A stretch of 64,000 nt of DNA from positions 2,728,001 to 2,792,000 of the forward strand of contig NZ_CP010271.1 of NCBI RefSeq assembly GCF_001456355.1, read 5' to 3'. A program made the position numbers and the translations under genes. Below, piece after piece: positions 54,153-56,735 of the stretch. Below the pieces are notes generated by a model, which was not told the DNA's origin, did no database searches, and saw only the letters and a list, made by a program, of their open reading frames with translations. How positions within the stretch are numbered: position 1 is the first letter of the stretch; each line of letters opens with the position of its first letter. The stretch is from Mycobacteroides saopaulense (GTDB lineage Bacteria; Actinomycetota; Actinomycetes; Mycobacteriales; Mycobacteriaceae).

Positions 54153-54814
54153 CCCGCACTGCCACTCGCAAGGGCATGACCCTGCGCGACGCTCTTGTCG
54201 AGTTCGTCAAACATCCCACCCCATGGATGTTGGTCGTGTGGTCCGCTGCGTTGCTCGGCGCTCGAATCACCTTGGGCGGCTGGACAATCGCCGACGCCAT
54301 CACACCTATCGTGCTGGTGGCCATCTCGCCCATCGCCGAATGGCTGATTCACGTCGGCATCCTGCACTGGCGTCCACGCTCGGTCGGACCGGTGAAGATC
54401 GACTCCCGACTGGCGCGCGATCACCGCCTACATCACCAGGACCCGCGAGACATCCCGCTGGTCTTCATCCCCTTGCCGAGCCTGGTCGTGGTGATCGCGG
54501 GATTGACCGCGATCGGAATATTTGCTTTCCCGCGCACCGGACTTGGTCTCACCTTCGCGCTGACCATCGCCCTGTTCCTGGTGTTCTACGAGTGGACGCA
54601 CTACCTCGTCCACACCGACTACAAGCCGCGTCACGCGATCTACCGCGCAGTGTGGAAGAACCACCGCTATCACCATTTCAAGAACGAGAACTACTGGTTC
54701 ACCGTCACCAGTTCGGGAACAGCCGACCGGCTGCTCGGAACCTACCCGGACCCTCAGCAGGTGCAGTCGTCACCGACTGTGCGAGACCTGCACGCGCCCA
54801 GCATCACCGGCTAG
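54149..54814 (+). CDS. Fatty acid hydroxylase / sterol desaturase-family protein
   Basis: 221 residues, four hydrophobic helices. Four His-rich motifs for a di-iron site: EWLIHVGILHW near 63, RDHRLHHQDP near 90, YEWTHYLVHTDY near 148 and WKNHRYHHFKNENYWF near 169. Non-heme hydroxylase of lipid chains in the membrane. Partner redox protein not adjacent. Co-translated with the FadR-like regulator. Its stop CTAG is shared with the small membrane protein gene on the other strand. Confidence 0.88.
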   Translation: MTRTATRKGMTLRDALVEFVKHPTPWMLVVWSAALLGARITLGGWTIADAITPIVLVAISPIAEWLIHVGILHWRPRSVGPVKIDSRLARDHRLHHQDPRDIPLVFIPLPSLVVVIAGLTAIGIFAFPRTGLGLTFALTIALFLVFYEWTHYLVHTDYKPRHAIYRAVWKNHRYHHFKNENYWFTVTSSGTADRLLGTYPDPQQVQSSPTVRDLHAPSITG

Positions 54815-54978
54815 CTTCCGGAATCTGGCCCATGGCTGGCGCCCGAGTAGCCGCTCTGTTGATGGTCCGGTCCGCCGACATGATTGCGCGGCCTACTACC
54901 GGAATTGGTTGCCACAAAGAAGCCCAGCCCCGCGATAAGCAGGACAATCACCGCCACGACGACGATGACGGCGGTCAT
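54811..54978 (-). CDS. 55-aa membrane peptide of the DUF692 cassette
   Basis: A short gene not picked up by length filters: ATG at 54978-54976 (minus strand), stop TAG in the CTAG at 54811-54814. The N-terminal 23 residues TAVIVVVAVIVLLIAGLGFF form one membrane helix. The tail is polar and rich in Gly, His, Ser: HVGGPDHQQSGYSGASHGPD. No cysteine. Its ATG shares one base with the TGA of the partner gene (TGATG), so it is translated by re-initiation. It may be a membrane anchor, a peptide substrate of the DUF692 enzyme, or an unrelated small protein; the sequence does not decide. Confidence 0.7.
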   Translation of the reverse strand: MTAVIVVVAVIVLLIAGLGFFVATNSGSRPRNHVGGPDHQQSGYSGASHGPDSGS

Positions 54979-55406
54979 CACACCTCGGCCCGCTCCGGAC
55001 GTAATGCGAAGTAACGCAACTTCTTCCCGAAGGCGATCTGGAGTTCGCGGCGACCGCCGCGGCGCACCAGGGCTATACGCCGCAGGCCCTCGGCGACCTC
55101 ACGATCCAGCACCCAGTCGCGCAGACGCGGCAGCTCGTAGGTGTACTCGCGGAATTCCTTGGCATCGCACAGCACACAGCACTGCATGGAGTGCAACCGC
55201 GCGTACTGCTCGAATTCAAACTCCCAGTTAGGCATTTCGTCGAGCCACGGCACCGCCTTGGCGACGTCGTAGCGCCGCTTGACCCGCAACTGCTCGCCCG
55301 CCGTCAGCGCCGTGTATTCATCGAATCCGGACGGCGCATTGCCGGCCAGCAGATCCGACAGCACCGAGAGTTGACGACGCCGTAGCGTCTCGCGGTTGTC
55401 AAGCAT
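54978..55406 (-). CDS. DUF692-associated partner protein (SCO6045-like)
   Basis: 142 residues from ATG 55406 (GTG 55415 possible). N-terminal LRRRQLSVLSDLLAGNAPSGFDE, then RVKRRYDVAKAVPWL; a C-terminal domain with MQCCVLCDAKEF (C-C-x2-C) and LRRIALVRRGGRRELQIAFGKKLRYFAL. Such helical proteins often accompany DUF692 proteins in actinobacteria and may deliver the peptide substrate, like MbnC for MbnB (inference). Overlaps the DUF692 gene by 8 bp. Confidence 0.65.
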   Translation of the reverse strand: MLDNRETLRRRQLSVLSDLLAGNAPSGFDEYTALTAGEQLRVKRRYDVAKAVPWLDEMPNWEFEFEQYARLHSMQCCVLCDAKEFREYTYELPRLRDWVLDREVAEGLRRIALVRRGGRRELQIAFGKKLRYFALRPERAEV

Positions 55407-56295
55407 GAACGACACCCGCCTTGATCGCCTGGCGGACCACGGAAAGGTCCGCGCTGACGCTGGCTTCGTCGATCGACCCGTCGCGCTCGATCAGCACGCC
55501 CAGGCCGCGCCCTGCGGTGAGCACCACGAGCTCGGTGAGCAGATCAGCCACCGGATCGATGATGTTGTCGGCGTGGGTATCCCAGTACAGATTGCCCTCG
55601 AAGCGGCCGCCCGCGATGTGGACGTACGCGACGCGCTCGAGGGGAAAACGACGCAGCAGCGCGACGGGATCGGTGCCGGAAGCCACCGCCGTCGCGTACA
55701 GATTGGGAACATCGAGCACCAACCAACAGCCGGTGCGTCGAGACAGTTCACGCAGGTAGTCGGGCTCGCTGAGCTCATTTTCGGGCCATTGCAAGGTGGT
55801 GGCCACATTTTCCAGGGCCAGCGGCACACCGAGGTCGTCCTGAACTCGGGACACATTGTCTACCAACACGTCCAGCGCCAGCGTGGTGCGCGGAGGAGCC
55901 ACCAGGTGCCCCGCCTCAAGCACGCCGCTGCTGCGACCGCTCTCAAAACCTGCCCGCACGAAAGCGACGTGCTCGCTGACCATCGGAGCGTCGAGTTCCG
56001 CAGCGAGGGCGGCCAGGTGCTTGACGCGCTTGGCGTCGGGCAGGTCGGCTCCGGCAAGACCCAGCGACACCCCGTGCGGCACGACGACGGTCCCCGACTC
56101 ACGAAGGCGCGTCAGTTCGGCGGGTAGCTGTCCGGGGCGAAAGTTCTCGGCGACGATCTCGGTGAAGGCGAGGTTCAGGGTGTCGTCCGTGACGGCCCCA
56201 CGATTGAACATCGCAGCAAGCTCCGGGCGCCACGAGGCGCCAACCGCGGGCTCGTCGGCCAGCACGGTCTTAAGCGGGTGATTTGAAGAGGCCAC
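55399..56295 (-). CDS. DUF692 (MbnB/TglH-like) multinuclear iron enzyme
   Basis: 298 residues from GTG 56295, AAGGGGG upstream. TIM-barrel features of DUF692: TVVVPHGVSLGLAGADL (near 69, His), MVSEHVAFVRAG (near 104, Glu-His), LALENVATTL (near 159, Glu-Asn), GCWLVLDVPNLYATA (near 188, Asp), AYVHIAGG (near 221), WDTHADNIIDPV (near 237) and GVLIERDG (near 264, Glu). The N-terminal LRxPH His is absent (ASWRPEL), so the site may differ. Known members oxidise Cys or other residues in ribosomal peptides (methanobactin, 3-thiaglutamate). First of a three-gene operon. Confidence 0.8.
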   Translation of the reverse strand: MASSNHPLKTVLADEPAVGASWRPELAAMFNRGAVTDDTLNLAFTEIVAENFRPGQLPAELTRLRESGTVVVPHGVSLGLAGADLPDAKRVKHLAALAAELDAPMVSEHVAFVRAGFESGRSSGVLEAGHLVAPPRTTLALDVLVDNVSRVQDDLGVPLALENVATTLQWPENELSEPDYLRELSRRTGCWLVLDVPNLYATAVASGTDPVALLRRFPLERVAYVHIAGGRFEGNLYWDTHADNIIDPVADLLTELVVLTAGRGLGVLIERDGSIDEASVSADLSVVRQAIKAGVVHA

Positions 56296-56357
56296 CGCGG
56301 TTACCCCCTTATCTCAAGACCGACGAACTAGGCCAGTCTAGCTACCACGTTGATAGC

Positions 56358-56735
56358 TTAGGAAGTGCTTGGTGCCAGCGGCTCAAAATATCCGTCCGAT
56401 CCCGGCCGGAAATTCGCCACAGAGGTAACTGCGGCTATCGGCAGCGGTCCGTACAAGTGAGGGAACAGCATCGATTCGGGGTCGCTGGGCACACCCGGTT
56501 CCCAACGTACCGGAGAGTCAAGCAGATTCAGGGCAACAGACAATACGACCAGATCACACCTTCCGCGATACAAGCGGTTGGCCGGAAGGTGAATCTGGTA
56601 CGGCGCGGAGAGATGAATGAAGCCCGTTTCAGCCAGTGACGTGGGCCGATGCTCCCCCTGCGCCCGAGCCGACGCCCACTCCTGGGCGGAACAGATGTGA
56701 AGAAGTTCGGCGTCATCCGTAGGCATCGACTGCAT
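56358..56735 (-). CDS. DUF952 family protein
   Basis: 125 residues from ATG 56735. The stretch LLHICSAQEWASARAQGEHRPTSLAETGFIHLSAPYQ near residue 10 (ends given), RCDLVVLSVAL near 60 and DPESMLFPHLYGPLPIAAV near 90 match DUF952. These are small cytoplasmic proteins of unknown, perhaps glutathione-transferase-like, function. Independent of the DUF692 operon (62-bp gap, same strand). Confidence 0.8.
   Translation of the reverse strand: MQSMPTDDAELLHICSAQEWASARAQGEHRPTSLAETGFIHLSAPYQIHLPANRLYRGRCDLVVLSVALNLLDSPVRWEPGVPSDPESMLFPHLYGPLPIAAVTSVANFRPGSDGYFEPLAPSTS

Follow-up and report, generated by a model that had tools for sequence, protein, structure and literature searches.

What does an iron-dependent oxidase do when the small protein encoded beside it has no cysteine? 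Most characterized reactions of multinuclear non-heme iron-dependent oxidative enzymes (MNIOs) target cysteines in the precursors of ribosomally synthesized and post-translationally modified peptides. The question is raised by a three-gene cassette of Mycobacteroides saopaulense, located in the 64,000-nucleotide stretch that we analyzed (the window; positions 2,728,001 to 2,792,000 of NZ_CP010271.1) of a 4.65-Mb single-contig genome. An initial annotation of this DNA had proposed three overlapping minus-strand genes, and we found all three frames between 56295 and 54811: an MNIO of the DUF692 family (PF05114; 298 amino acids, GTG start, 55399–56295), a likely partner protein resembling those of PME-type 2 (142 amino acids, 54978–55406), whose gene overlaps that of the MNIO by 8 bp, and a one-helix small protein devoid of cysteine (54811–54981). 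A nearby cysteine-containing precursor, usual for MNIOs but not strictly associated with them, is missing from the cassette. The reading we favor, with moderate confidence, is that the cassette represents an actinobacterial MNIO modification system with a membrane-anchored small-protein substrate, and that the enzyme still acts on a shortened tail of this substrate.

The proposed identity of the first gene as a DUF692 enzyme was borne out by its PF05114 match (E 4.9e-62; 210 bits, cut-off 25), besides which the genome contains no other at E 1e-3, and by a structure model with a TIM-barrel of the TglH/MbnB-like fold. Nine conserved residues (H74, H109, E162, D195, N198, H226, D239, H241, and E270) line up with their counterparts in 3bww and TglH, and across 121 sequences, comprising the window protein and its 120 best-listed homologues, they are kept in all but P0017 and P0080, the latter of which has a gap at E270. 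By these predicted ligands the enzyme is equipped with the His, Asp, Asn, and Glu residues that characterize MNIO metal binding, and on the metal-binding pocket, which the initial annotation had singled out for checking, the MNIO-like model shows the active-site residues in place. P0017, at 78% identity, has H109, D195, and H241 all replaced, which suggests an inactive or diverged MNIO relative. Models for particular MNIO types matched the window enzyme below their cut-offs (BufB-type, 156.1 of 310 bits; HvfB-type, 117.4 of 360 bits; ApyH, 109.7 bits, cut-off 400).

The initial annotation had also pointed to the lack of an N-terminal LRxPH histidine. This motif is indeed absent, but we rejected its absence as an anomaly, as TglH (8hci) and 3bww also lack it at the aligned position. 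The same alignment, together with the MNIO-like model, failed to bear out the different use of the fold that the missing motif had been taken to signal. A TIM-barrel put to other purposes, such as those of a sugar isomerase, would find some support in a secondary Pfam match that lies just over its threshold (PF01261, 31.8 bits, cut-off 31.1); we give this explanation almost no credence.

For the second gene, anticipated to encode a small partner, no Pfam match was obtained at cut-off. The gene adjoins that of the MNIO and its product lacks the DUF2063 signature, as with PME-type 2 proteins. Its structure model had MNIO partners, TglI and MbnC, as its top three matches, at low Z, and PF26136 was found in its homologues, one of which bears the name SCO6045-like C-terminal domain-containing. 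Using an iterated profile, we detected the partner at 79 of 80 named loci. We consider this protein a likely helper of the MNIO. Its own cysteines were entertained as modification targets and rejected; one looks structural, because it aligns with a cysteine common to most of the non-Streptomyces partners aligned. SCO6045, after which the partner's family is named, appears in an RNA-seq table of a paper on the redox-sensing HbpS-SenS-SenR system (PMC4991794).

We then asked whether the third frame, initially described as a hidden gene for a 55-residue membrane peptide, is real. With a threshold of E 1e-3, an MNIO match was obtained in 50 of the 396 genomes sampled from the genus as defined by GTDB. 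Within this genus, ten orthologues, including the window (89–100% identity), all have the partner and a one-helix gene that is third in order with an overlapping start, so that the small gene proved both conserved and always third within this close group, two points that the initial annotation had raised as checks. Its length is better revised: a GTG or ATG codon one position upstream of the ATG (at 54981 in the window) is kept in all ten orthologues, and in the orthologue L045 the codon that follows is not a start codon, which makes a 56-residue protein, with a 4-bp overlap between its gene and that of the partner, likelier than the 55-residue form starting at 54978. We estimated ratios of nonsynonymous to synonymous substitution (dN/dS) by the Nei-Gojobori method as ratios of means over pairs; given short sequences and non-independent pairs, these values serve as indications. 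For the eight short forms of the gene, mean dN/dS was 0.155, a large contrast to the 1.58 of the +1 frame used as a control. By these signs the third frame is a genuine one-helix gene, more than a chance frame, with a transmembrane helix predicted by hydropathy at residues 4–22 of the 55-residue count (54913–54969). A bacteriocin-like YxzE match of the peptide was dismissed as below cut-off (E 6e-4, 21.2 bits of 40); it probably reflects the hydrophobic helix and Gly-rich tail.

What varies among the ten orthologues is cysteine. In Mycobacteroides sp. LB1 (L045) and Mycobacteroides sp. CBMA 271 (L047), the third gene encodes 81–87 amino acids with a Ser/Gly tail containing four or five cysteines. 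A single cysteine is found in L042, L043 (M. franklinii CV002), L044 (Mycobacterium sp. D16Q13), and L046, and none in the window, L041 (M. chelonae S00154), L003, and L004. The initial observation that no Cys-rich precursor adjoins the enzyme is therefore true of the window, yet two of the ten orthologues have a Cys-rich version of this gene. In a DNA alignment, the short form lacks the Cys-rich stretch in frame and has its stop codon at the corresponding place. Because outgroup tails are Cys-rich, an in-frame loss of this stretch appears to be the simpler direction of change. Position 49 (54832–54834, within GYSGAS-x-G), a His in the window, is always one of Cys, Tyr, and His among the eight short forms of the loci; it is Cys (5), Tyr (4), or His (2) in eleven further proteins obtained by searching, some of which may equal locus genes, so that the two counts are not independent. 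Tyr44 is invariant in all ten orthologues, and Asp38 sits in a PDHQQ stretch conserved among the short forms.

Phylogenies gave differing accounts of how often these changes occurred. A DNA tree of the MNIO gene, with the partner gene added for the ten orthologues, united the short forms in one clade (support 93) and the four Cys-less members only at 52. The protein tree joined the window and L041 to M. abscessus and the Cys-bearing L042 and L043 with support 99, the His label of M. abscessus deriving from a protein recorded separately for this species (P0145); here the short forms were not a supported clade (21) and the root was unresolved. With the two trees in conflict, one loss of the Cys-rich stretch is the most economical account but is unproven, and how many Cys replacements followed is uncertain.

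Loss of cysteine could herald loss of function, and we therefore examined selection in the four Cys-less genomes, in which dN/dS was 0.074 for the MNIO, 0.072 for the partner, and 0.163 for the peptide (0.075 and 0.093 for the MNIO and partner over all ten genomes). Proteins P0135–P0145, of which P0144 and P0145 have unusual ends, were excluded from these estimates. The values indicate purifying selection on all three genes, which makes simple decay unlikely and is the reason we think the enzyme still active on the shortened tail. A cassette that is a relic heading for loss would fit the graded disappearance of cysteine within the group and the three replaced active-site residues of the distant homologue P0017; however, in none of the ten orthologues is the MNIO or partner frame interrupted or altered in length, and dN/dS near 0.07 extends to the Cys-less genomes. 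We judge this explanation very improbable. Persisting selection on the peptide is also compatible with a protein that is no longer a substrate and instead tethers the MNIO-partner pair to the membrane, as an anchor or docking subunit, or works as a small regulator; all ten orthologues retain the helix and a juxtamembrane NSGSRPR stretch despite the loss of cysteine. Such a role seems rather unlikely to us, since constraint on the tail is at least as strong as on the helix part (dN alike, 0.137 versus 0.140; dN/dS 0.113 versus 0.204) and in sister species the same gene has a Cys-rich, low-complexity tail of the kind expected for an MNIO target.

We surveyed further sets of loci, which share genomes, counting helices by hydropathy on the longest frame and scoring as a Cys tail at least three Cys and half Gly, Ser, or Cys in the last 45 residues, a rule that misses the short forms by design. 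Among the best family matches, excluding the window (L012–L040), a one-helix Cys-tail protein is encoded in the flanks that were searched at 20 of 29 loci (on the downstream side of the MNIO at 18), and 8 have an upstream multi-helix protein with a Cys tail (L031 falls in both counts); two have neither. One-helix Cys tails occur at 17 of the 23 named loci L066–L088, the exceptions being four Mycobacteroides short forms, the partnerless L084 (Nocardioides), and the multi-helix L087 (Streptomyces). The combination of MNIO, partner, and one-helix Cys-tail proteins is found in Williamsia, Tsukamurella, and Nakamurella. Other mycobacteria provided 42 matches, 25 of which were taken as loci; the partner is present at 23 of these 25, as is, in the same number, an upstream protein with at least two predicted helices and a Cys-rich tail. 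Two such upstream proteins, when compared to TIGR04222, scored 23.7 and 39.1 bits, below its threshold of 43. At the Streptomyces loci (L089–L145), a multi-helix Cys tail was found within the searched 2.5 kb in 12 of 57.

Three of seven inspected tail-less Streptomyces loci (L089, L109, and L136) carry a three-helix protein without a Cys tail further downstream, so that Cys-free membrane proteins may accompany this MNIO branch outside the mycobacteria as well. Tandem one-helix Cys-tail proteins with differing tails occur at Williamsia-type loci (L012–L020, L072, L073, L076, and L077, with L018 from another genus). L076, titled Kitasatospora arboriphila, closely resembles L077 of Williamsia muralis and comes from the same genome as L019 (G218), which is classified in the family of the window; the title of L076 looks misassigned.

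Given the Cys-rich orthologues and the one-helix Cys-tail proteins beside MNIOs in relatives, the third gene is probably derived from one that encoded a membrane-anchored substrate of the enzyme. The initial guess of a peptide-modifying cassette is favored by the position and architecture that the gene shares with these Cys-tail proteins. The accompanying suggestion of an unconventional membrane-anchored substrate survives in part: the gene product is a counterpart of membrane-anchored Cys-tail proteins next to MNIOs, but it looks like a shortened, Cys-poor form of them and not like a new kind of precursor. In all 28 one-helix proteins considered (that of the window, P0135–P0145, L045, L047, and 14 chosen from relatives), Lys and Arg are commoner after the helix than before it, which, by the positive-inside rule, suggests a cytoplasmic tail; this is where an MNIO without a signal peptide would be.

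We propose that the N-terminal helix anchors a flexible, cytoplasm-facing tail, that the partner presents this tail to the multi-iron center of the MNIO, and that the MNIO would then oxidize tail side chains. The ancestral targets would have been the cysteines of a Ser/Gly/Cys-rich tail, yielding a membrane-tethered modified tail that perhaps bound metal as a ligand. Within the chelonae-abscessus group, an in-frame loss would have removed the Cys-rich stretch, and the last Cys would have been replaced by Tyr or His in several species, with the enzyme still acting on the shortened tail, whether on a residue other than Cys or to make another product. Cysteines are also the likely targets in the Cys-rich relatives; in the lineage of the window, should its peptide still be modified, the candidates are Tyr44, Asp38, and position 49. 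A bolder version holds that the MNIO switched, stepwise and within one genus, from Cys to another residue of the tethered, cytoplasm-facing peptide (Tyr44, Asp38, or the Tyr/His at 49), the cysteines passing from several to one to none with the enzyme retained throughout; we offer this tentatively, as possible but short of probable.

A cassette left without a Cys substrate might instead encode an MNIO that works in trans, with its substrate gene at another place in the genome; for bufferins, precursor genes distant from the MNIO gene have been reported (Antoine et al., 2025; PMC12452194). A TIGR04222 protein was rejected as such a hidden substrate, there being no match to this model in the M. 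saopaulense genome. Searches of this genome with three Cys-tail relatives returned the cassette peptide, otherwise hits at E 0.02 or worse, or nothing; they uncovered no convincing second Cys-tail substrate, although low-complexity tails are hard to detect in this way and two of the queries had no positive control. We consider action in trans unlikely.

How does the favored system, in which a membrane-anchored tail is the substrate, compare to those already known? TglH/TglI of the pearlin pathway and MbnB/MbnC of methanobactin biosynthesis resemble the cassette in enzyme fold, active-site residues, and a separate partner; their precursors contain cysteine and are not known to be membrane-anchored. 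Closer parallels are the TIGR04222-MNIO-PME-type 2 clusters, mostly of Actinomycetota, which as described by Antoine et al. share with the cassette an MNIO, a short partner without the DUF2063 signature (at least 10% of the clusters), and a membrane protein with a Ser/Gly tail; more than a quarter of TIGR04222 proteins have no C-proximal Cys (PMC12452194). In those clusters the membrane protein has several helices and its tail was inferred to be periplasmic, whereas here there is one helix, the order is MNIO-partner-peptide, and the tail is predicted to be cytoplasmic. Neither the window peptide nor the eight one-helix relatives tested matched TIGR04222 (43 bits). The adjamnio-V proteins of the same paper, which are very small, encoded right after the MNIO, and without structural homologues, are like the third gene product in size and in being encoded beside an MNIO, and the one-helix tails could possibly be identical to them.

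According to its published account, MNIO chemistry extends to Asn, Asp, and Phe, with Tyr tolerated (PMC12026744), and PbsC (Phe/Tyr), ApyH (Asp), and MovX (Asn) provide precedent for Cys-free reactions, on other precursors and in other clusters. The general arrangement of the cassette is already in print (PMC12452194), and its unusual feature is an MNIO retained with a Cys-less cognate peptide. Our analysis also points to M. abscessus and M. chelonae as carriers of an uncharacterized MNIO; searches of open-licence papers that combined MNIO or DUF692 with abscessus or Mycobacteroides returned none. If true, a substrate family of one-helix, membrane-anchored proteins would add a protein-modification use of MNIOs, and the natural series of closely related cassettes with several, one, or no Cys makes the residue need of a given MNIO directly testable.

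By its MNIO, the closest named relative of the window is M. chelonae S00154, at 98% identity, within one named genome collection from which records very near the window were possibly omitted. The cassette is flanked upstream by a DUF952 gene on the same strand and downstream by a convergent fatty-acid hydroxylase gene, the end of which shares 4 bp with the peptide gene. A 19-bp inverted repeat (56340–56358, minus strand) directly follows the DUF952 stop codon, approximately 45 bp ahead of the MNIO start. It is present in all ten orthologues and identical save for one base in L045, whose version has perfectly paired arms. Within the genome it was the sole site at three or fewer mismatches, and a backwards control also gave one match. 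The repeat can be folded as a hairpin, with folding of the whole region not significant (z -1.5), and it may be an operator or a terminator for the upstream gene.
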